From Terriglobales bacterium (GTDB lineage Bacteria; Acidobacteriota; Terriglobia; Terriglobales; Acidobacteriaceae), in contig JANWKU010000058.1 of assembly GCA_025451215.1 (NCBI GenBank), positions 1 through 56,235 on the forward strand: 56,235 nucleotides of DNA, given 5' to 3'. The translations under genes and the position numbers were made by a program. How positions within the stretch are numbered: position 1 is the stretch's first letter; each line of letters starts with the position of its first letter. The notes below the pieces were generated by a model. The model had not been told where the DNA came from. It searched no databases and saw only the letters and a program-made list of their open reading frames with translations. Shown piece by piece: positions 41,667 to 56,235 of this stretch.

Positions 41667-42410
41667 TTACATGTCGAGCTGGAAAGCTTGTTCGAATTGC
41701 TGCTCTGTCAGCTTCTTGAGCAGGAATTGCAAAACTTGCCGATCACCCTTGCGGATCTCTGAAAATTCCAACCCCATGCCATGACGAGGCACCTTGTGCC
41801 GGACAGCAGCCCCAACCGTGACGTCGTACTGCGCCACTTGAAGAGTTAGCCTCATTTTCGCTCCGGCTGGCAAAGGATCATTCGTGGTAAGCAGGCATCC
41901 TGTTTCCGAAAGGTTTTTGATGCTGGCCTGTGGCATATTCATGTGCTGAAAATCCACGCGGCCCTGGATCTCAAAACGTGGCGCTGAGCGCCGGGTTTGC
42001 TCGGTCGCGACCGACCATTGCGAAGGCCTGTGGGTCTGCAATGAATCGAAAACTTCGTCCATATCTTGAAGTTCTGACTCCCACATGGTCCTGTCCATTT
42101 CTACTCCCTGAATGCCAACCTGGCCATGCAGGGGTGAATTGGGTTCGCCCACCCAGATCACGCGGCAGAAAAATTTCCCCATGCGCCCGCGTTCAACGGC
42201 AATGATTTCTCCAGCCTTGGGATCGCGCAAACCGGTGACTCTGGCGCCTAGCGGCGAGATGTCGTAGGTGCAAGCCATCGCGAGGTGGGGCCGGTTATCG
42301 TTGTCCCACTGCGTTATGCGGACCGGCAAGGCGATGTGGATGCGCTTATTTTCGCGCTCGGGCTGGTTACTGACTTCTTCCAACGTGTTCTCCCCGAAAT
42401 TCCACGCCAT
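41667..42410 (-). CDS. Tandem PilZ domain protein
   Basis: The 247-residue protein has two PilZ-like beta-barrel domains. The first (about 20-110) begins KRIHIALPVRI and has DISPLGARV (DxSxxG) but no standard RxxxR. The second (about 140-245) has RSAPRF (RxxxR) and NLSETGCLL (NxSxxG), so it should bind cyclic di-GMP. It probably acts as a cyclic di-GMP receptor; its partner is unknown. It is convergent with rplS and divergent from rnhB. Confidence 0.8.
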   Translation of the reverse strand: MAWNFGENTLEEVSNQPERENKRIHIALPVRITQWDNDNRPHLAMACTYDISPLGARVTGLRDPKAGEIIAVERGRMGKFFCRVIWVGEPNSPLHGQVGIQGVEMDRTMWESELQDMDEVFDSLQTHRPSQWSVATEQTRRSAPRFEIQGRVDFQHMNMPQASIKNLSETGCLLTTNDPLPAGAKMRLTLQVAQYDVTVGAAVRHKVPRHGMGLEFSEIRKGDRQVLQFLLKKLTEQQFEQAFQLDM

Positions 42411-44960: not shown

Positions 44961-46874
44961 TCACCGCGCCTTAATAATGTCGCCCAGCATGTCCGGCTTC
45001 GATTCATCCCGCACCAGATGCGGATATTTCTGCCCGCCGTGGTAATCAATTTTGTAGATAATGAAATAATCCGTATTCTCCACCAACAATTCCAGAGGCG
45101 ATGAACTGGTTTTCCCTTCATCGAGCGCACTGCGAAACACTTGCTCGGAATAACGCCTTCCATTTACCGCCACGATCTTCATGCCCGGCCCAATGCCCGC
45201 CTTGGCCGCGGGCATGCCTTCCACGGTGTCAATGATGGTGCCATCGGCCTGGAGCAGTAAGCCCACGGAGTATTCTGCGTTGATCTCTTTACGCTCGTCT
45301 TCCCATGCTGCGGCCCGTTCGCTGCGGGACTCATCGTAAGTGACCTTCCAGCCGCTTTCTTCCACGCCCCCCAGCGGCGCGCCCGGTCCATGGTTGGTGA
45401 GCCGTTCGGTCCAAAAACCGCGCCAGTCATAAGGAGCAATCTGATTCAGCGCATTCACAATGTCATCAAAGGTGTAAGTCTTTACGACTTCCGGATCGCC
45501 ACTGGGCTCGCCGTAAAACAGGTGGCAGAAATCGTCAATGGATTTTGCCCCCTTCGTTTGCTGGCGGATGATCGTGTCAGCCCAAAGCCAATTCAACACG
45601 TCTTCTTCGTAATAATCCAAAGGACGACGCCACGAAACCCATTGGTCAGGGGCATTCTGCATGGAAGGGACGCCATCCGCTGTGTCCTGTAAATTGCGCC
45701 ACGTGCGGCCCGGACGATGGTCGAGCATGGCGGCGATCATCCCGAGATTGTCGCGATATTGTTCCGGAGAACGCAGTCCGCTGCGCGCGCTCAACACGTC
45801 TCCGAGATAAGAGGTCAATCCTTCATAGACCCAAAGCAAATCCGTCTGCATCGGTTTTTCATAGTCGGGAGTGGTCAGATCAGCCGGCCTGCGATATTTC
45901 CCATTCCACGAATGAACGTATTCGTGAGGGAGCAAGCCTATTTCCAGCATGCGGTATGTCGCGTCGGAAATTCCCCGCTCCGGCAAACGGCTATCGTCAG
46001 ACTCATGGTGCTCCAAACCAAAATGCGCGACGTGGTCGCTCAGAGTAAAAATAAAGTGATAATCGCGAAAGTGACGCGCGCCAAAAAGTTTGTACGCCTG
46101 CTCGGTTAAATCCTTGTAGTTGTCAAACAGGCTTTCCGGCGCGTTAAGCGCCGCAGCGCTGTCGGCGGTTATATCGAGTTCCTGATGAGGGTTCTCCGCC
46201 AGGGGAACCACTTTCATGTACTCGCCGGTGACAGTGGGTGAATCCACTAATTCGGTCAGCGACGTTGGTTTGAACTCAATTTGCGCACCATTTTGCGAAG
46301 CCACCGGCAACGGTGTGGCAAATTTCCATCCAGCGGGAAGTTGCAGGCTCAATTGATAACTTAGATCATCCGAATTCCACCCAGCCGGATACAACAGCAG
46401 CGTGTTCCAACTTAGAATCGCCAGCTTGTCGGTCGCCGAAGGGCCGGCGGTGTAAATCCCCTCTTCCACCGGAGCAATAAAATCCAACGACGCTTCCACG
46501 CTGGTTACGCCTGCAGGCACCTCCACGTGAAACTTCCATCCGTCTTGCAAGTCGCGGCGCCATTTCAAGTCGTGCCCGTTGGCAGCGAATTTGAGTCCGG
46601 TCAGGTCTTCAATGGGTCCAGTGGGGCCGTGTTCGCCGGGTATCCACTTGGGGTAATAAAGAGTTAGCGTGCCGGGTGTGGCGGGAATATTTAACCTGGC
46701 ATGAAATATTTTTCGCGGCGCGTCAGTGGCGTCTACCGACATCGTTATCAAGGTAGGAGCTTTCGCCGCGGCTGTCTGCCGGACGGCTGATTTCTCTTTC
46801 GCGAAAATTGGTGCGGTTACGATAAGGACGAAAAGAAGGAATGAAATCAAGTAAGACTTGCAAGACAAGCGCAT
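44961..46874 (-). CDS. M61 family metallopeptidase
   Basis: The product is 637 residues from the ATG at 46874, which has AGGAG 6 nt upstream; a longer frame from 46934 lacks this. A signal peptide (SYLISFLLFVLIVTAPIFA) is followed by the N-terminal beta domain, the gluzincin site LLPHEYVHSWNGKYRRP (HExxH with the M61 WN) near residue 330, and a C-terminal PDZ-like domain (AAKAGIGPGMKIVAVNG). M61 enzymes are glycyl aminopeptidases. It is likely periplasmic. Confidence 0.9.
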   Translation of the reverse strand: MRLSCKSYLISFLLFVLIVTAPIFAKEKSAVRQTAAAKAPTLITMSVDATDAPRKIFHARLNIPATPGTLTLYYPKWIPGEHGPTGPIEDLTGLKFAANGHDLKWRRDLQDGWKFHVEVPAGVTSVEASLDFIAPVEEGIYTAGPSATDKLAILSWNTLLLYPAGWNSDDLSYQLSLQLPAGWKFATPLPVASQNGAQIEFKPTSLTELVDSPTVTGEYMKVVPLAENPHQELDITADSAAALNAPESLFDNYKDLTEQAYKLFGARHFRDYHFIFTLSDHVAHFGLEHHESDDSRLPERGISDATYRMLEIGLLPHEYVHSWNGKYRRPADLTTPDYEKPMQTDLLWVYEGLTSYLGDVLSARSGLRSPEQYRDNLGMIAAMLDHRPGRTWRNLQDTADGVPSMQNAPDQWVSWRRPLDYYEEDVLNWLWADTIIRQQTKGAKSIDDFCHLFYGEPSGDPEVVKTYTFDDIVNALNQIAPYDWRGFWTERLTNHGPGAPLGGVEESGWKVTYDESRSERAAAWEDERKEINAEYSVGLLLQADGTIIDTVEGMPAAKAGIGPGMKIVAVNGRRYSEQVFRSALDEGKTSSSPLELLVENTDYFIIYKIDYHGGQKYPHLVRDESKPDMLGDIIKAR

Positions 46875-46995
46875 GAAAGCTCCTGGGAACCTGGGCGTGC
46901 CGCAGAAAACGAATATAGCAGCATGGAATCGCAAGTTCCATCCATGCGCAGGGCATTCGAGTGATATTTCCAGACAGACTGGTCGGTTGCCTTGT

Positions 46996-47001
46996 TATCA
47001 T
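46996..47001 (+). promoter_or_regulatory. Probable -10 element of tmk (leaderless)
   Basis: TATCAT ends 8 nt before the GTG at 47010, and no ribosome binding site precedes either possible start codon. Confidence 0.35.
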
Positions 47002-47009
47002 CTTGCTTC

Positions 47010-47690
47010 GTGACTTCACATTCACATCGCGGAAAATTTATCACCTTCGAGGGGCTGGACGGCTGCGGAAAGAGCACGCAACTGGGAAAGCTGGCCGCCG
47101 CTCTCAGGTCTCAGGGAATGATCGTGGTGGAAACTCGCGAGCCGGGAGGCACACAGGCAGCGGAAAAAATCCGTCAGCTCCTGTTGAACAGCAGAACGTC
47201 TCCGCTGGCTCCGAATACGGAATTGGCGCTCATGTTTGCGGCCCGAGTCCAACACATTGAGCAGATAATCGCACCCGCGCTTGAGGCTGGAAAAATTGTG
47301 CTTTGCGACCGCTTCACCGATTCGAGCGAAGCATATCAAGGCGGCGGACGAAAACTTGGCAGCAAGCCCGTGCTGGAACTGCATCGCATTCTATGCGGAG
47401 ATTTGCAGCCAAATCTTACAATCTTGATGGACTCTGACGTTGTGGCCAGCGTTCGCCGCGCGCGCCGGCGCAATAAAGCGCAGGCGGAATCGGCGTCAAA
47501 TCATGCCTCTGATGAAGGCCGCTTTGAGAAAGAGAACCGGGCATTCTTCGAGCGCGTTCGCGAGGCCTATTTGACGATTGCACGCCGCGAGCCGCGGCGC
47601 GTGAAATTAGTGGACGCTCGCGGAACAATTTCACAAACCCACAAAAAGATCCTGGAACTGGTACAAAAGACTCTGAAGCCCGCGAAATAA
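47010..47690 (+). CDS. tmk: Thymidylate kinase
   Basis: Tmk makes dTDP from dTMP. The product is about 226 residues from the GTG at 47010; a TTG at 46992 is an alternative. It has ITFEGLDGCGKSTQ (P-loop), ETREPGGTQAAEKIR, CDRFTDSSEAYQGGGR (the DRF/dTMP-binding motif), and a basic LID region (RRARRRNKA). It ends 3 bp before holB, the standard tmk-holB pair. Confidence 0.94.
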   Translation: MTSHSHRGKFITFEGLDGCGKSTQLGKLAAALRSQGMIVVETREPGGTQAAEKIRQLLLNSRTSPLAPNTELALMFAARVQHIEQIIAPALEAGKIVLCDRFTDSSEAYQGGGRKLGSKPVLELHRILCGDLQPNLTILMDSDVVASVRRARRRNKAQAESASNHASDEGRFEKENRAFFERVREAYLTIARREPRRVKLVDARGTISQTHKKILELVQKTLKPAK

Positions 47691-47693
47691 ATA

Positions 47694-48791
47694 ATGCCCT
47701 TTTCAGATTTCCACGGAAACCCGGCCGTCGTACATCGCCTGCGCGATATGCTGGCGCGCAACCGTTTTCCGCAAGCTGTAATTCTGGCAGGGCCGGAAGG
47801 GTCGGGAAAATACACTCTGGCCCTGATGCTGGCGCAGGCAATGAATTGTTTGGAGCCAATCCAGACAGAAGGATTGCCAGACTTCTGCGGAAAATGCGCC
47901 AACTGCACGCGCATTGCGCAGAGTCAGGATTTGGATACGCTTTCCGCGGAAGCGGTGGAAACTCGGGAATCTCTCCGCGAAACCGACAAAAAAGAGACCC
48001 GGCTGTTTATTCAGACCCATCCTGACGTCCTCGTGATTCCACCCGATCCACCGCAACTGGTAATCAAGATGGACCAGGTGCGGCGCGTCATCGAGACAAT
48101 TTATTTTCGTCCCGGAGAAGCAAGAGAGCGCGTTTACATTTTCACGACCTCAGCTTTCATGAAAGAGGCGGCCAACTCGCTCTTGAAGGTGCTGGAGGAG
48201 CCGCCGGAGTTCGCCACGATTTTCCTGCTCACGGAAAATGCCGGAGAGTTTCTGCCCACGATCCGCTCGCGTTCTACCATCATTACTTTGGCGCCGCTGA
48301 GCGTAAGTGAAGTGGAGCAATATCTGGCGCAACAGCGTCCTGAATGGAAGACGCCACAACGCGCGCTGGTGGCACGACTCAGCGACGGCGCGCTTGGCAA
48401 AGCGCGCACTTTTGATATTGCAGTGTATGTAGCGGCCCGGGCCCACGCCCTGACCATCTTGAATGTTGCGCTCCGCGGTGGTGATCACAGCGAGTTGTTC
48501 AAAGCCACTGAAACGTATCGCGCCGGAGCGGAGGGCCGCGAAAAAACAGACAATCTGCTAAAGACGATTTATTCCCTGCTCCAGGATTTGTTGTTCCTGA
48601 ATTCCGGCACTCCAGATCTGGTGCGAAATACTGACATCATCGGCGAATTAAAAAAGCTAGCAGAGGCCGCCGATTTCTCCTGGATCGCCACGGCCGCTGA
48701 TCGTTTGAATGATGTGGAACGCGGCATGCGCCGGAATCTATTACGATCTCTGTCGCTGGACGCTTTTGCCACGGCTCTGGAACGCGGCTAA
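47694..48791 (+). CDS. holB: DNA polymerase III subunit delta'
   Basis: The delta' subunit is part of the clamp loader. The 365-residue product has the P-loop GPEGSGKYT (residues 33-41), a zinc module with Cys 52, 65, 68 and 71 (DFCGKCANC), VIKMDQVRRVIETIYFRPGE, the SANSLLKVLEEPPEFATIFLLTEN-like segment and TIRSRS (sensor 1). In E. coli delta' the P-loop is lost, whereas here it looks intact. It follows tmk at 3 bp and converges with the MFS gene. Confidence 0.92.
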   Translation: MPFSDFHGNPAVVHRLRDMLARNRFPQAVILAGPEGSGKYTLALMLAQAMNCLEPIQTEGLPDFCGKCANCTRIAQSQDLDTLSAEAVETRESLRETDKKETRLFIQTHPDVLVIPPDPPQLVIKMDQVRRVIETIYFRPGEARERVYIFTTSAFMKEAANSLLKVLEEPPEFATIFLLTENAGEFLPTIRSRSTIITLAPLSVSEVEQYLAQQRPEWKTPQRALVARLSDGALGKARTFDIAVYVAARAHALTILNVALRGGDHSELFKATETYRAGAEGREKTDNLLKTIYSLLQDLLFLNSGTPDLVRNTDIIGELKKLAEAADFSWIATAADRLNDVERGMRRNLLRSLSLDAFATALERG

Positions 48792-48803
48792 AGCCACGCT
48801 GTA

Positions 48804-50150
48804 TTAATCCTGCACAACTCTGCTCGTCATCTCAACGGATGGCTCTCCGCCCGCAATGCCTTGCGCAATAATCAGCCGTCTGGCTTCGGTCCGGATCTTT
48901 GGTAAATTCCTTCCAAAGATTACTGCCCCACCGATCGCCGCAACCGCGCCCATGGCTACCGTAACAGGAGCTCCCAACCGGTCCGCCAAAGCGCCCGCCA
49001 AAAGCGTGCCGAAAGGGGCCATGCCCATGAACATCATGGAATAAACCGCCATCACTCGACCGCGTAGTTCATCAGGAGACATTGCCTGGATCAGCGTATT
49101 CGAGGACGACATTTGGAACATCATGCAAAAGCCGACCGGCACCAGCAATGCTGTAGACAGCCAAAAGGTATGTGAGAAGGAAAATAAAACCAGAAATACT
49201 CCAAAGCCCCCGCAGGAATACGCAACCCATCGGCCAAGTCCCCGCACGCCGCTGCGAGAGGCGAGCGTCAGCGCTCCGAGCAGAGCGCCCACTCCAGTTG
49301 CGCCCATCAATATTCCCAAACCGCGCGCCCCGCTATGCAGCACGCGATCGGCAAAAATCGGCATCAACACGACGTAAGGCATGGCCACGAAACTCACCAG
49401 TCCCAGCAGCAGCAGAATGACGCGGATGGGCGCGGTTCCGCGTACAAAGCGGAACCCTTCCATAATGTGCGCAAGCGGGGACACACCTGTGGCGCGAGGG
49501 GCGACTCGAGTAATTTGCATCATCAGCAAGCCTGCAATCACCGCGATATAGCTGACGGAGTTCGCAAAAAAACACCAGCCTTCGCCGATCCTGGCCACAA
49601 GAATTCCGGCAATCGCGGGCCCAATAATGCGAGCGCCATTGAACATGGACGAATTCAAGGCGATGGCGTTCATCAGGTCTTCCCTGCCCACCATGTCCAT
49701 TAAAAACGCCTGCCGTCCGGGGATATCGAAGGCATTCACCACCCCCAAAAGCGCGGCAAGAACAAAAATTTCCCATATCTTGATTCGTCCGCTCAGCGTA
49801 AGCGCGGCGTAGATTCCCGCAAGGATCATCGAGCACACTTGCGTGCCAATCACCACTCGCTGCCGGTTATACCGGTCAGCGACAATGCCGCCCAGCGGCG
49901 CGACCAGGAATACGGGAATCTGGCTGCTAAAACCAACCGCCCCCAGCAACAGCGATGAACCGGTTAGGCGGTAAACCAGCCAGGATTCCGCGATCGTCTG
50001 CATCCATGTGCCAACCAGCGAAATTAATTGTCCACTGAAAAACAGTTGGAAATTGCGATGCCGCAATGCGCGCAGCGTCACCGGCAACCATCCGCCGGGG
50101 GGCTGATCCTGATTTTGCTTGGACAAATCTGCTGCGCTCAGGTCGTTCAC
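48804..50150 (-). CDS. MFS transporter, EntS/MFS_3-like
   Basis: The 448-residue protein has about twelve membrane helices. The N-terminal region (ALRHRNFQLFFSGQLISLVGTWMQTIAESWLVYRLT) and the loop GGIVADRYNRQRVVIGTQ are typical of the MFS_3 branch, which includes the enterobactin exporter EntS. MSSSNTLIQAMSPDELRGRVMAVYSM is the other signature. It probably exports a small molecule. It starts at GTG and is convergent with holB, 12 bp apart. Confidence 0.85.
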   Translation of the reverse strand: MNDLSAADLSKQNQDQPPGGWLPVTLRALRHRNFQLFFSGQLISLVGTWMQTIAESWLVYRLTGSSLLLGAVGFSSQIPVFLVAPLGGIVADRYNRQRVVIGTQVCSMILAGIYAALTLSGRIKIWEIFVLAALLGVVNAFDIPGRQAFLMDMVGREDLMNAIALNSSMFNGARIIGPAIAGILVARIGEGWCFFANSVSYIAVIAGLLMMQITRVAPRATGVSPLAHIMEGFRFVRGTAPIRVILLLLGLVSFVAMPYVVLMPIFADRVLHSGARGLGILMGATGVGALLGALTLASRSGVRGLGRWVAYSCGGFGVFLVLFSFSHTFWLSTALLVPVGFCMMFQMSSSNTLIQAMSPDELRGRVMAVYSMMFMGMAPFGTLLAGALADRLGAPVTVAMGAVAAIGGAVIFGRNLPKIRTEARRLIIAQGIAGGEPSVEMTSRVVQD

Positions 50151-50314
50151 GTTATCTATGCTTTTGATGTGCGCTCACTGCTCACCGATTCGGGTCGCTG
50201 TTCGAGTGGCAATTCTTTTCCCTCAGCATACTGCCTCTTCGCCCCTGGCAGGCATCCTATGGTGACTTATTAGTGACTTTCAGGGACCGCATAACTGGGT
50301 TAGAGTTAAAAACA

Positions 50315-50746
50315 ATGGATTCGAGCATACAAATCGAGCGTCGAGCAGCCCAACGTTTTGATCTCCAACTTCCCGTATCGTTGCACGTAGCCAACGAAGG
50401 GAAGGAGAATCGGGCCTTGACTAACGATTTAAGCGCCGCAGGCACGCTGCTTTATACCGACCGTTGTCTGGAAGAAAACGCCAGCGTGGAACTCACTTTC
50501 GTCATGCCCTCGGAAATCACCTTTGATGGCAACCTCCGCGTCCGCTGTCTGGGAAAAGTTTTGCGCGTAGCTCCGCCGCAAGTGGGCTCGAATTACAGCG
50601 TCGCCATTCATTTTGATCATTACGAATTTCTTCCCGACAAGGAAGCTTCCGTCCGGTATGCCCCGGTCGTTTCAGATCCGGCGGAGCAGGAAGAACTATC
50701 GCTAAGCTCGCATGTTTTTCATCCTCGCAGCCCGCTTTCCATTTAA
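50315..50746 (+). CDS. Single PilZ domain protein
   Basis: The 143-residue protein starts at the ATG at 50315, giving IERRAAQRFDLQLPVSL with the RxxxR motif and NDLSAAGTLLYT with DxSxxG, so cyclic di-GMP binding is likely. An upstream in-frame GTG at 50273 has no ribosome binding site. A short acidic tail ends the protein. It lies about 280 bp upstream of the CpaE-like gene on the same strand. The partner protein is unknown. Confidence 0.83.
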   Translation: MDSSIQIERRAAQRFDLQLPVSLHVANEGKENRALTNDLSAAGTLLYTDRCLEENASVELTFVMPSEITFDGNLRVRCLGKVLRVAPPQVGSNYSVAIHFDHYEFLPDKEASVRYAPVVSDPAEQEELSLSSHVFHPRSPLSI

Positions 50747-51022
50747 CAGGTCCCATTTTTTCTAACTATCTTTGCTTCTGTAGGTTTCAGCGAAACTCCG
50801 CGCTAGTTGTGGAGATAAGTGTGCTCTTCTATTCCTTTTCAAGCGGTTTGTTTTGCCATAGAATGTTTTTACAAGGGACATCCATCGCGTGGTTGTCCTT
50901 AGATTTCTTACTGTTACAAACTTTGTATTGCTGCTCTGAAGGGCTATTACCAAAGTCACTTGGCTTGGTGTCTCCCCCTCCATAGCATGGTTCGATTAGA
51001 AACTCTTTAGAGATTGGATTTC

Positions 51023-52234
51023 ATGCCAGGCATCGCGGTCTCCTATTTAGCGGAAGAAAAAGACCGGTTGATAGTGATCCAAAACCGGTTGGATAGCGCG
51101 CAGTTGAGCCGCAACGTATTCAGCCATGGCGCGTTCCCTTCCTCTGCGACCGATTCCATTCTGCGGCAAATTCAGGATGTGCGCTCCGACGTGGTTCTCA
51201 TTGATATTGACCCGAACCACCCACAACGGGCCATCTCCGCGATTGAATTGATTCATGCCACAACTTCTGATGTCGTGATTTTCGCCTCTGGCGAAATGAC
51301 CAACCCAGCGACCATCGTTTCCGTCATGCGCGCCGGCGCTCGTGAATATCTTGACCGGAATGCCACCACGGAAGCCATCGCTGAAGCGTTTGCCCGCTAC
51401 ACAACCGCTCGCAATAAAGCTCGCGCCGGTTCAGGCCGCGCGCGGGTATTTACCTTCACCAACGCCAAGGGCGGCGCGGGCGCAACCACCGTGGCCGTGA
51501 ACACCGCCATCTCATTGCAGGAGTCGCAGGGCAATGTTTTGCTGGTGGACTTTGCTCCTTTGGGCCATGCCGCGCTCCATTTGAATGCGCGTCCCACTTT
51601 CGGACTTCCCGATGCCCTCCAGAACCTTCATCGCATGGATGCCTCGTTGCTCGATGGCTTAATGACCGAATGCAAAGGTGGACTGCGTTTGCTTGCGGGC
51701 TCGCAGCAGCCATTGGCCGCAGTTCCGGCCGCTGCGGAACTCGCCCGGCTCTTCGATCTGCTGGTTATTCACTTCCGCTATGTCGTGGTGGATTGCTCCA
51801 ATCGCGTGGACCAGACGGCACGCATGTTATGCGATCTTTCCAGTGCCATGTTGGTAGTGGCGCAAACGGATGTGGTTTCTTTGTGGAGCGCCGGACGCAT
51901 GCACACATTTCTTGAAGAAGGCGGACAAGAAAAGGTCCGTTTGGTCCTGAATCGTTACAAAAAAATCCCCGGCTTTAGCGATGAGGACGTCGAAAGAGCC
52001 ACCGACACAAAGCTTCTGTGGAAGATTCCCAACAATTTCCAGGCAATTGCCCCCGCCATTGATAAGGGAGTTCCAGTGGCATTGCATGATAATCAGGAAA
52101 TTGGCCGCTCTTATCGTGGCCTGGCTGCGGCTTTGGCTGGAGCAGCCTCGAATGCCGAAGGCGGATTGGCCCTCACCCCGCAGACTACCAAAGGCGCCGG
52201 ACGCCTGTTGTCACCGCTGCGCGCCGAGCGCTAG
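51023..52234 (+). CDS. CpaE/TadZ-like P-loop ATPase with N-terminal receiver-like domain
   Basis: The 403-residue product has a receiver-like N-terminal domain (about 1-120, SDVVLIDIDPNHPQRA, DVVIFASGEMTNPATI, RAGAREYLDRNA) and a MinD/ParA-type ATPase domain (about 135-370). The P-loop is KGGAGATT at 149-156, with Ala where the usual deviant Walker A has Lys, a feature common in CpaE/TadZ pilus-positioning proteins. LLVDFAPLGHAALHLN and VVVDCSNRVDQT follow. No other tad/cpa genes are in the window. Polar localisation or pilus assembly is a plausible role. Confidence 0.8.
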   Translation: MPGIAVSYLAEEKDRLIVIQNRLDSAQLSRNVFSHGAFPSSATDSILRQIQDVRSDVVLIDIDPNHPQRAISAIELIHATTSDVVIFASGEMTNPATIVSVMRAGAREYLDRNATTEAIAEAFARYTTARNKARAGSGRARVFTFTNAKGGAGATTVAVNTAISLQESQGNVLLVDFAPLGHAALHLNARPTFGLPDALQNLHRMDASLLDGLMTECKGGLRLLAGSQQPLAAVPAAAELARLFDLLVIHFRYVVVDCSNRVDQTARMLCDLSSAMLVVAQTDVVSLWSAGRMHTFLEEGGQEKVRLVLNRYKKIPGFSDEDVERATDTKLLWKIPNNFQAIAPAIDKGVPVALHDNQEIGRSYRGLAAALAGAASNAEGGLALTPQTTKGAGRLLSPLRAER

Positions 52235-52237
52235 TTC

Positions 52238-54457
52238 CTACTTCCCTGTATTCGCTTTGCTTTCCAGCGCGGCATAAATTGCGGGATTCGAACATACTTC
52301 GTAGTAGGACCGCTCCGTCCAATGATCTAAAGAAAAGTCGCGCGGATCAATTTGCGGCATGCGGCTATCGCGCACGATGATCTGATGAAAAATCCCGTTT
52401 CCCAGCGGCACCAACCCGTACAGCAAAGTAAATTCCTCGCTGCCCCACAAACGGGGAAGCTTCAGCTTGCAGGGCTCCAAAGAGATTTCCTGCTGCAACC
52501 GCCGGAATGCGGCTTCGCTCATGCGAATGCCGTTCAGGTTGTACTTCATGATGAAATCGTCCGGGCTTTCCGCAGCGTCGCCATCGCTGATGGTTTGAAA
52601 AGAGTAAACATTGAATGGACTGGACAAGGCCTCAACAGGTTTGCGCATGCGCTTATTGCAGGACGACAAGCGGTCGCTTTCATTCAACGCATCCGAAATC
52701 ATGATCCGCTGCTCACCATCCAATAGATACATGGGAGCAGAATTTTGATACGAAATGCCGATTCCCAATTCCAATGAAGGTAGCCCCGCTCGTTGCAGTA
52801 ACTCGTTATAGCCGCGCACAATCGCGATAATTTCTCTTGCCAGCACGCAGGTACGGCCCACCGACAAACTTGATTCGCCTTCGTTCTCGAGCAAAGTGAG
52901 AATGATGGCGTCACCTTCCAGGAAAACTTTGCTCGCGCCGTACTTCGCCAACAGCTTGTTGACCGGCTCATAAAAATTCAGGCTGAAGTAAGAGGCTGGA
53001 TTGAGCCCACGTTCCAACAAAGAGCGCGTCAGCTTCGTGGAATCACGCACGTCAGCCTTTAGAATCACATGCCCTGAGACCGCTGCTTCGGCGGGCTTCT
53101 GTTCCTCTTCGAGCAGAAACTCATAGAGAGTCCCGTTCATGGCAGAAAGCTCGCGCATCTTTTCGGTGGTGATGAGATTAACGCTGTCCAGCGCCTCGTT
53201 CACCACTTCCAGGCGCTGCAAATCGCGGTGATACCGAAGGAAATCATAGAAAAATCGCGCTGCGACCTTGGCCCGCGCCGCACCGGAACAATTTGCGGCC
53301 CGCGTCACCGCATTGCGCAAACTGTCCATCGAAAGCCGGCCGTGCTCCTGAATAAGCTTCTCAACGCGCTCGCGCTCTTCCCGCGAAATAAGAGCATTCT
53401 TTAATTGTTGAATATGAATGCGCGGCGAATACTCAGCCAGCAGCGGCACCACTTCGTAGGAGGCAATCACATGCTCAAGCACGTCTTCGCGGTCCAGCAA
53501 TTCTACCCACGCCTCGAGTCGTGCCCACTGGCTGCGCCCTTCACGCGTCAACTCGTCGGGAGTTCCCTGCCCTACCAACTGATAGGCATTCTCCGGCACA
53601 CTGAGCCATCCGTTAACGGTATTTTCGTCGTCTTCGCGCAAATTCAAAGAACGCAGAAACTCCGCCGCCAGCCGCTGCACATTTCCATAACGATTGGGAT
53701 CGTGGTCAAAGTTGCCCAGCATTAGGTAATGCTCGGCGTTAAAGTACGGATCGCGGCCATCCTCGGTGAATACCAGAGGGTTTAAGAACAACTTGTATTC
53801 CACATCCGACCGCGTGCCAAACAGCGATTGCCGCATTCGCGTCAGGCTTTCTTTTTCTATTTCGCGCAATGTGTGGAAGAGTTCCAGCCCAGCTTTGCGA
53901 AGAATGATCCGCTTCGCCACTTGAAAGGCCGCTACCGCCTCGCGATACTCATGCCCTTTGCTCTGCCGGACGCCTTCATAATTCTTAAGCGTCATGCGGC
54001 AACGTTCCAATATCTGCCCAAACTGCGCGTTCAATTCCACGCGCAGAAACTTCAACACTGCCAGCCGTCCAAGTACGTCAATCGTAAGGTTTTTCGAGCC
54101 TTTCGCGCGGTTTAGAATGGCAATCAGCAGCGAAGCTAAAAGTGGCTTCAGATCGGAAGGTTCCGTCTTCGGCTTTGGACGGCCTTTGACTGTCCCGCCG
54201 GCAAACTGTTGTCCTGAAGGAAGCTCCGATGTCTCCGCCGCGAGCAGGCCACCCACATTCCCGTGCAGTATCACGAGGCGCGCCAACTGCTGCCTCATCT
54301 GCTCCACGAATCGCGGGCTTAAATGAACATCATGGCGCAAGTTGTCCACGCCCAACTGCAACCCTTCCAGAATGAGATAAGGATTGTAGGTGCTCAACTT
54401 AGGAGGTAGCGGCTCCTCCGTCGAACCTCCGAGCTTGAAAATGGGGATACGCGGCAT
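52238..54457 (-). CDS. Large protein with divergent class III nucleotidyl cyclase-like domain
   Basis: The product is 739 residues from the ATG at 54457. Residues 1 to about 450 are helical, soluble and unlike any family I know. Residues about 463-610 resemble a class III adenylate/guanylate cyclase: D469 in LKADVRDSTKLT and D516 in FLEGDAIILTL stand at the two metal positions, IGISYQNSAPMYLL corresponds to the IGIHTG strand, and N592 and R596 in NESDR match the transition-state NxxxR. The lysine and aspartate that choose the base in active cyclases are not obvious, so it may be inactive or use another substrate. Convergent with the CpaE-like gene. Confidence 0.7.
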   Translation of the reverse strand: MPRIPIFKLGGSTEEPLPPKLSTYNPYLILEGLQLGVDNLRHDVHLSPRFVEQMRQQLARLVILHGNVGGLLAAETSELPSGQQFAGGTVKGRPKPKTEPSDLKPLLASLLIAILNRAKGSKNLTIDVLGRLAVLKFLRVELNAQFGQILERCRMTLKNYEGVRQSKGHEYREAVAAFQVAKRIILRKAGLELFHTLREIEKESLTRMRQSLFGTRSDVEYKLFLNPLVFTEDGRDPYFNAEHYLMLGNFDHDPNRYGNVQRLAAEFLRSLNLREDDENTVNGWLSVPENAYQLVGQGTPDELTREGRSQWARLEAWVELLDREDVLEHVIASYEVVPLLAEYSPRIHIQQLKNALISREERERVEKLIQEHGRLSMDSLRNAVTRAANCSGAARAKVAARFFYDFLRYHRDLQRLEVVNEALDSVNLITTEKMRELSAMNGTLYEFLLEEEQKPAEAAVSGHVILKADVRDSTKLTRSLLERGLNPASYFSLNFYEPVNKLLAKYGASKVFLEGDAIILTLLENEGESSLSVGRTCVLAREIIAIVRGYNELLQRAGLPSLELGIGISYQNSAPMYLLDGEQRIMISDALNESDRLSSCNKRMRKPVEALSSPFNVYSFQTISDGDAAESPDDFIMKYNLNGIRMSEAAFRRLQQEISLEPCKLKLPRLWGSEEFTLLYGLVPLGNGIFHQIIVRDSRMPQIDPRDFSLDHWTERSYYEVCSNPAIYAALESKANTGK

Positions 54458-54769
54458 GGCAAATGGGAGCGCCCGCAAACAGTTCACTATGCTCCATTTC
54501 GAGCCTAGCATCCGTCGCTTGCGCCCCAAAGTTACCCAAGTTACGCCGGGAGGACGTAGGGGAATTCTTGCGTTTATTAAAGACGGGCAGCTGTGAATGG
54601 CGAGCCCGGCCCTAAAGTCTTAAAAACTCAGGGTTCGCTCTGGCTGGGACCATTCGCCGCGCGAGGCACTCCATCCAAACGCCCTGGCCAATTTCCGAAT
54701 ATGGGTTCTTGAAACTGGTAGAAAGCGCGGGGCAATCTGAGAAAAGTACGTGCATCTATTGCCGTACGA
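54458..54769. other. 312 bp non-coding gap
   Basis: This stretch between the cyclase-like gene and the site-2-protease-like gene holds no convincing frame, repeat or terminator. It must carry the promoter of the minus-strand cyclase-like gene, but no clear promoter boxes can be named. Confidence 0.5.
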
Positions 54770-55780
54770 TTACCTTGGAGTCCCGCGAATTTGCGAAATA
54801 GCCTGGAGCAAAGAGCTGTTCGTTGTCGGCGCGGGCGCGAAGGTGAGCACTAGCATGAGCAGCCCAAAAATAGCGAGCGCTCGGCGTCTTTTCAGCGGCG
54901 GAAACTCCGGCACTGAAGGGTGCCGCATTCCGGTCAGGCCTAATAAGATGGCCCACAAAAGCCACCCCGCCCAGCAGTAAATCGACAGCACCACGAGGAT
55001 GGCAATCGCCGCCCAGGAAAGGGTCCTATGAGCGCGTGGCGCCAGCGAATAGATAATATGTCCGCCGTCCAGTTGCCCGCCGGGCAGCAAATTGAGCGCT
55101 GTCGCGAACATCCCGATCCAGGCGGCAATCGCAACAGGGTGAAAATAGATGCTCTGTAACGCCGCAGCCGTTCCCTGCGGAGGAAGGAAGCGGGCGGCAA
55201 GGTGAAAAATCAGCGGATATCCTAGCTGCGAGTCGGCAGCGGGCAACGGAACTCCAACTCGCGACATAGGCAATGAAATCACAAGAGCCGCGACCGAAAT
55301 CACGAACCCAGCAATGGGTCCAGCAATGCCAATATCAAACAGCGCTGCGCGTGAGCGGATTTGGGAACGAATGCGAATGAACGCGCCCAGCGTGCCAAAT
55401 AGAGTCGGCGCTGGAATGAACAATGGCAACGTCGCTTCCACTCCGTAATACAGGCACCCGAGATAGTGCCCCATCTCGTGCGCGAACAAAATCAGCATCA
55501 GCGTGGCTGCAAACGGAATTCCCAGCAACAGACGCGAGGGCTGCGCCAATACCCAACTTACCGGAAAGAAACTAAACGCCTGGTCGTTGAACAAAAAGGC
55601 CGGGGAGTTGTGGAGAAAATTGAATTCAATGCGCGCTCCGACCACCAAAGTTGTAAAGATGGTCAGCAACAGCATTAATCCATAAAGCCAGTAATGCTTT
55701 CTTCGCGGCCGCACCACCGTCACTTTTATGGGAGAAAGATATTCCGTTGCAGGTGGGGCGGAGGGTATGAGATCAGACAT
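54770..55780 (-). CDS. Site-2 protease (M50) family membrane protein
   Basis: The product is 336 residues from the ATG at 55780, with AGGA upstream; a longer frame from 55903 is not needed. It has about seven membrane helices, the intramembrane zinc motif LFAHEMGHYLG (HExxH) and the second metal motif NLLPGGQLDGGH (DG near the third ligand). A GTLGAFIRIRSQIRSRAALFDIGIAGPIAGF segment is typical. M50 proteases cut membrane-bound anti-sigma or similar regulators; the substrate here is unknown. Confidence 0.88.
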   Translation of the reverse strand: MSDLIPSAPPATEYLSPIKVTVVRPRRKHYWLYGLMLLLTIFTTLVVGARIEFNFLHNSPAFLFNDQAFSFFPVSWVLAQPSRLLLGIPFAATLMLILFAHEMGHYLGCLYYGVEATLPLFIPAPTLFGTLGAFIRIRSQIRSRAALFDIGIAGPIAGFVISVAALVISLPMSRVGVPLPAADSQLGYPLIFHLAARFLPPQGTAAALQSIYFHPVAIAAWIGMFATALNLLPGGQLDGGHIIYSLAPRAHRTLSWAAIAILVVLSIYCWAGWLLWAILLGLTGMRHPSVPEFPPLKRRRALAIFGLLMLVLTFAPAPTTNSSLLQAISQIRGTPR

Positions 55781-55924
55781 CAGAAAATCCTGGGGCTTAT
55801 TATCAACTATCAACGGAAGCAATCGCCTGCCAGCGGAAAATCGGAAGAAGTTTTCGTTCCTGATGGTCTCAACAAGCGGGTCACAATCGGCGATCGCGAT
55901 CAACTTCGCGGCCAGCCGCCAAAC

Positions 55925-56200
55925 CTAATCAATCGACTGCAATTCCTTGCCTGGCTTAAAGCGCACGGCCTTACCGGGAGGAATGGAAACTTCCGCGCCA
56001 GTCCGCGGATTTCGGCCAATCCCTGTTTTGCGCGGGCGCACGTTAAACACGCCAAACCCTCGCAATTCAATGCGATCGCCCTTGGCCAGGGCCTTTTTCA
56101 TGCTGTCGAAGACAGTCTCCACGGCGATTTCCGCCTTGCTTTTGGTAAAGCCGGAGCCCATCTTTTCGCAAACTTCGTTGATAATGTCGAGCTTGATCAC
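55925..56200 (-). CDS. HU/IHF family DNA-binding protein
   Basis: The 91-residue protein starts at GTG at 56200 (VIKLDIINEVCEKM) and has the HU beta-arm RGFGVFNVRPRKTGIGRNPRTGAEVSIPPG with the conserved RNP and Pro at the arm tip. An upstream in-frame ATG at 56233 would add 11 residues, outside the usual 90-residue length. It bends DNA as a dimer; HU versus IHF cannot be told from one subunit. Confidence 0.92.
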   Translation of the reverse strand: MIKLDIINEVCEKMGSGFTKSKAEIAVETVFDSMKKALAKGDRIELRGFGVFNVRPRKTGIGRNPRTGAEVSIPPGKAVRFKPGKELQSID

Positions 56201-56235
56201 GGTGGCAAACCCCCAAGCGGAATCAAATCCCACCA

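Follow-up and report, generated by a model that had tools for sequence, protein, structure and literature searches.

The window, by which we mean the whole stretch of 56,235 nucleotides that was analysed, carries on its minus strand a gene for a 739-residue protein that joins a helical N-terminal domain to a cyclase-like domain (Table 1). The reading frame runs from an ATG at 54457 to a stop codon at 52238-52240, just as the earlier note on this DNA had drawn it. An alternative TTG start is present upstream at 54529, and differs from the start of the homologues, at MPRxPIF. Two PilZ domains are encoded nearby, at 41718-41993 (-) and 50336-50617 (+), and between 44961 and 50150 the window holds genes for an M61 peptidase, a thymidylate kinase, a DNA polymerase III delta-type subunit and an MFS transporter. 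No Rfam family was found within 46000-56235. When the 739-residue protein was searched directly against Pfam, NCBIfam and the PDB by sequence, only chance matches came up, to Plasmid_RAQPRD, PmtA and a methyltransferase. The TraI_2 matches, also rejected, are weak (5 of 35 members, best 5e-4), and cover part of the model, at about residues 399-507, straddling the domain border.

Table 1. Features of the cyclase-like gene and its convergent neighbour, in window coordinates
Feature	Position	Strand	Basis
Gene for the 739-aa cyclase-like protein	52238..54457	-	ORF and translation; full-length homologues begin at MPRxPIF
Predicted helical N-terminal domain, residues 1-455	53093..54457	-	AlphaFold2; PDB, Foldseek and VIA searches
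Predicted class III nucleotidyl cyclase fold, residues 458-722	52292..53086	-	Foldseek, VIA, hhalign
HVILKADVR, residues 463-471, with putative metal ligand D469 and Lys467	53045..53071	-	Alignment
KVFLEGDAII, residues 510-519, with putative metal ligand D516, Phe512 and Glu514	52901..52930	-	Alignment
IMISDALNESDRL, residues 585-597, with putative transition-state pair N592/R596 and Ile585	52667..52705	-	Alignment
Convergent neighbour: CpaE/MinD-like ATPase whose N-terminus is weakly receiver-like	51014..52234	+	Domain searches

Is the C-terminal half a cyclase? The earlier note had suggested as much from residue spacing, and proposed structure prediction followed by a fold search. The full-length AlphaFold2 model (pLDDT 86.4, pTM 0.77) indeed has the class III cyclase fold: by Foldseek, residues 458-722 match Cya2 with an E of 2e-6, and VIA aligns the model with both the mammalian AC C1 domain (1cjk_A; Z 15.9, 171 residues, 3.2 Å) and Cya2 (2w01_D; 178 residues, rmsd 3.0 Å) at the Z 15.9 level, and with the cyclic UMP synthase 7r65 at Z 15.1. 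Relative to the class III fold there are extra segments within 458-722, probably at about 622-675. In the model D469 lies where strand 460-470 ends, D516 lies in the turn that links strand 509-514 to strand 517-525, and helix 589-598 carries both N592 and R596, as the class III fold expects. Profile comparison points the same way. In hhalign, the profile built from 68 homologues matches ordinary acidobacterial class III domains with an E of 2.5e-9 (domain) or 9.8e-8 (full length), superposing D469, D516, N592 and R596 on their canonical catalytic counterparts; the N-terminal half, used as the control, gives nothing against the ordinary acidobacterial class III domains. The family profile also retrieves ordinary class III cyclases from other acidobacterial genomes (E 1.6e-7 to 5e-4).

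The features that mark class III membership, two metal-binding aspartates (D469, D516) and an NxxxR pair (N592, R596), are present. All four residues sit where they had been placed before, spaced as in class III cyclases, and are invariant in 68-69 homologues (68/68 at 42-74% identity). Because these positions and Phe512 are invariant across the homologues, the motif is not a chance one, and the invariance of all four catalytic residues argues for catalysis. No Pfam or NCBIfam model matches the cyclase half; PF00211 (Guanylate_cyc) finds nothing in the protein at E up to 10, nor in 67 homologous domains at E up to 1. By predicted fold, homology and catalytic residues the protein is thus a class III cyclase, outside every named family searched, a result that favours the suggestion of the earlier note that it may represent a new cyclase subfamily.

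What distinguishes the family is its base pocket. In class III cyclases a purine-selecting pair, Lys-Asp/Thr for ATP and Glu-Cys for GTP, defines the subtypes and not the class. We placed the family (68 members) and a set of ordinary acidobacterial cyclase domains (57) in one merged alignment; no gaps fall in the segments flanking either aspartate, so that residue offsets are safe. Position 467, two before the first metal aspartate, is Lys in 68/68 family members and Phe in 52/57 ordinary domains. At position 512, four before D516, the residues are exchanged: Phe in 68/68, versus Lys in 51/57. Position 514 is Glu throughout the family (68/68), versus mostly Ile, Val, Leu or Met in the ordinary domains, and position 585, the second purine contact, seven before N592, is Ile or Val versus the ordinary Thr or Asp. 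The pair of the adenylyl and guanylyl subtypes is therefore absent, with Phe512 and Ile/Val585 in its place. The earlier note had seen that the purine-selecting residues differ, with Phe at the expected Lys, and the invariance of F512 agrees with this; Lys467, the invariant E514 and Ile/Val585 had escaped it. Further departures from the canonical set are D472 (canonically Gly), S473 (Phe) and S588 (Gly), and the active site may therefore be altered more deeply. In this family the base-selecting positions have been rebuilt and have since stayed fixed, which strongly hints at a changed base choice, without indicating which base. An ordinary cyclase domain at locus L118 (DKYEGDAIMAF) has the Glu two before the second metal aspartate alone, without the Lys/Phe exchange.

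The PycC pyrimidine cyclases pick their base via residues other than the purine pair (PMC11224242). In EaPycC, crystallography shows that the choice of CTP depends on F100, R142 and Q144, with D102 and D146 as metal residues; in AnPycC the choice of UTP depends on F60, K104 and F109, with D62 and D106 (PMC11224242). Numbered from the metal aspartates, D1 and D2, the EaPycC selectors lie at D1-2, D2-4 and D2-2, and those of AnPycC at D1-2, D2-2 and D2+3. Lys467, Phe512 and Glu514 occupy D1-2, D2-4 and D2-2, so that the family is altered at exactly the positions where EaPycC sets its choice of CTP. EaPycC and AnPycC both keep Phe at D1-2, whereas the family has Lys.

How does the protein compare with known systems? 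With the class III cyclases (PF00211; Cya2, CyaC, mammalian AC C1) it shares the fold of 458-722, the metal aspartates and NxxxR, as well as the GD turn and the GIGI strand; it differs in having no Pfam match, in the Lys/Phe exchange, Glu514 and Ile/Val at the Thr/Asp position, and in its extra segments and an N-terminal domain that matches no known sensor. It also shares the fold with the PycC enzymes (BcPycC, EaPycC, AnPycC; cUMP synthase 7r65, cytidylate cyclase 8jsf), but differs from them in having no linked effector and a large N-terminal domain. DUF2652 (PF10851) is a further divergent family of cyclase-like proteins, likewise identified by profile methods (PMC4886424). Unlike the 739-residue protein, DUF2652 proteins are single-domain, of about 250 residues, with conserved Lys-Glu or Glu-Lys/Arg pairs, and PF10851 matches neither the protein nor the homologous domains; a DUF2652 search of 61 genomes of the class was blank, as was its control, so that the blank carries no weight.

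The N-terminal domain is the second unusual element. Modelled alone, residues 1-455 are predicted to form a helical domain (pLDDT 88.5, pTM 0.85) with low-confidence stretches at residues 1-12 and about 79-99, and the invariant residues include G36, D38, N39, D43, W317, Q351-L352-K353 and D405. The earlier note called this part unlike known sensor modules, a view that holds within the sequence and PDB fold searches of residues 1-455: the PDB sequence search gave no match, no Pfam regulatory domain matched, Foldseek reached a best E of 0.14 and VIA a best Z of 6.8, and BFVD gave nothing. The helical bundles listed by the fold searches (exocyst, MUN, myosin tail, 14-3-3) score Z under 7, within VIA's stated noise for helical models. 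Rv1264-type cyclases also place a helical regulatory domain ahead of a class III cyclase domain. The order of domains is alike in the two, but the match to 1y11 is confined to the cyclase part of the 739-residue protein. On the predicted model, the N-terminal domain would be an orphan with no match in the libraries searched (PDB, BFVD), which does not by itself prove a new fold.

The family is common in its own group. Of the 398 genomes sampled from its taxonomic family (Terriglobales, Acidobacteriota), 149 carry relatives, spread over 49 of 79 genera and usually as one full-length copy (two in G575); named Terriglobia/Acidobacteria assemblies hold eight loci. In a sample of the phylum (396 genomes) full-length relatives are confined to the same taxonomic family, the remaining matches being local and weak, and those found by profile hitting the cyclase part only; the matches listed for the order (200 genomes) likewise come from that family only. 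No relatives of the protein were found in the phage, plasmid and viral-contig collections. Weak matches of two loci in the phylum (L007, L009) to residues 36-190 were set aside as chance, as the family profile failed to recover them, and second matches in three genomes (G414, G418, G472) are not paralogues; they are class III cyclases of the ordinary kind, whose N-termini are different. Our literature search found no paper on such a cyclase in Acidobacteria.

What do the neighbours say? The earlier note had pointed to two PilZ-domain genes and a CpaE-like gene nearby and proposed a survey of homologous neighbourhoods. The genes are there; the survey, of 41 loci, gave no functional link to either. 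The source genome holds 25 PilZ matches, so that two nearby convey little information, and the CpaE-like gene faces the cyclase gene in the window and at only two other sampled loci (L062 and L081), and probably does not belong to the cyclase system. The recurrent neighbours across the 41 loci are of the housekeeping type: genes for MutY, a redoxin and an M28 peptidase often precede the cyclase gene and share its direction, and a gene for a TonB-C protein is often found facing it; other neighbours vary. The recurrent neighbours of the cyclase gene include no linked effector or receptor gene, and no PycTM- or PycTIR-like effector was seen adjoining it among the annotated neighbours. Elsewhere in the source genome there is no PF00211 match, and ten cNMP-binding-domain matches exceed the cut-off; with the 25 PilZ matches, the possible receivers of cyclic nucleotides or c-di-GMP far outnumber the recognised class III cyclases. 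A cyclic nucleotide made by the 739-residue protein would therefore have possible receivers.

We think it probable, on alignments and a predicted model, that the protein is an active cyclase with an unusual base choice, and this is the best reading of the data. In its fuller form, the protein is most likely a soluble homodimeric cyclase, with activity, substrate, gating and dimerisation all inferred, whose unusual base choice is gated by an orphan sensor. Two protomers would pair head to tail, with a pair of metal ions bound by D469 and D516 of one protomer and the transition state stabilised by N592 and R596 of its partner, to convert an NTP to a 3',5'-cyclic nucleotide. In the base pocket Lys467, Phe512, Glu514 and Ile/Val585 would replace Phe, Lys, an aliphatic residue and Thr/Asp, and with the pocket so rebuilt the base is probably selected differently than in ordinary adenylyl and guanylyl cyclases. 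The substrate would perhaps be a pyrimidine NTP, or a purine bound in a new way. The helical domain of 455 residues probably serves to sense a signal or partner in the cytoplasm and to control the geometry of the dimer.

The chief rival is that the protein is an ordinary adenylyl or guanylyl cyclase after all, in which Lys467, on strand 1, stands in for the missing Lys at 512, to make cAMP or cGMP. The exchange is reciprocal (Phe to Lys at 467, Lys to Phe at 512) and both positions are invariant, which resembles a compensated swap. One would think, too, that a genome with ten cNMP-binding-domain matches yet none to PF00211 might need a source of ligand, though a simple motif scan of those domains for cyclic-nucleotide binding gave no clear match. 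A re-sited Lys, however, leaves unexplained the loss of the second purine contact (Ile/Val585) and the new invariant Glu514, and we hold this explanation to be possible but doubtful. Less probable still, and in our judgement unlikely, is an inert cyclase fold that serves as a nucleotide sensor, acting through the helical domain or regulated by it. Changes to the purine-selecting residues and several of their neighbours, and a cyclase domain that no Pfam model recognises, would suit such a sensor; inert relatives of enzymes usually lose some catalytic residues, however, and here the metal aspartates and the transition-state pair alike stay invariant among homologues of 42-74% identity.

Might the gene instead belong to an anti-phage system, as a pyrimidine cyclase of the Pycsar type? 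The PADLOC PycC model PDLC02368 weakly matches 43 of 67 members (best 4.8e-5), and the fold match to the cUMP synthase is in keeping with this. The same model, however, also hits 108 of the 247 genomes searched across the phylum, for the most part on long ORFs sized like ordinary multi-domain cyclases, and is therefore unspecific. Moreover, the gene is a stable chromosomal one, absent from the phages, plasmids and viral contigs searched, and the 41 loci show no PycTM- or PycTIR-like effector beside it among the annotated neighbours. We regard a defence role as very improbable. PADLOC PycC calls made with PDLC02368 in acidobacteria need an effector check.

To return to an active cyclase with an unusual base choice, its boldest version, which we put forward tentatively, is a new subfamily whose product would be neither cAMP nor cGMP but another cyclic nucleotide, for example cCMP or cUMP, serving as a housekeeping and not a defence signal, with a new helical sensor and a Lys/Phe/Glu triad unseen in the cyclases compared. 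In the class III cyclases base choice is read from a few positions, and the fixed combination in this family is atypical of all 57 ordinary acidobacterial domains compared and unreported for the pyrimidine cyclases compared, while the residues of the chemistry are untouched. An unexpected cyclic-nucleotide signal may thus be made, which would bear on whether products such as cyclic pyrimidines have a part to play beyond phage defence. With its N-terminal domain the protein contributes a confidently predicted fold of roughly 430 residues without a match. The family also gives a testable function to a gene that more than one in three of the genomes sampled from a major group of soil bacteria carry.
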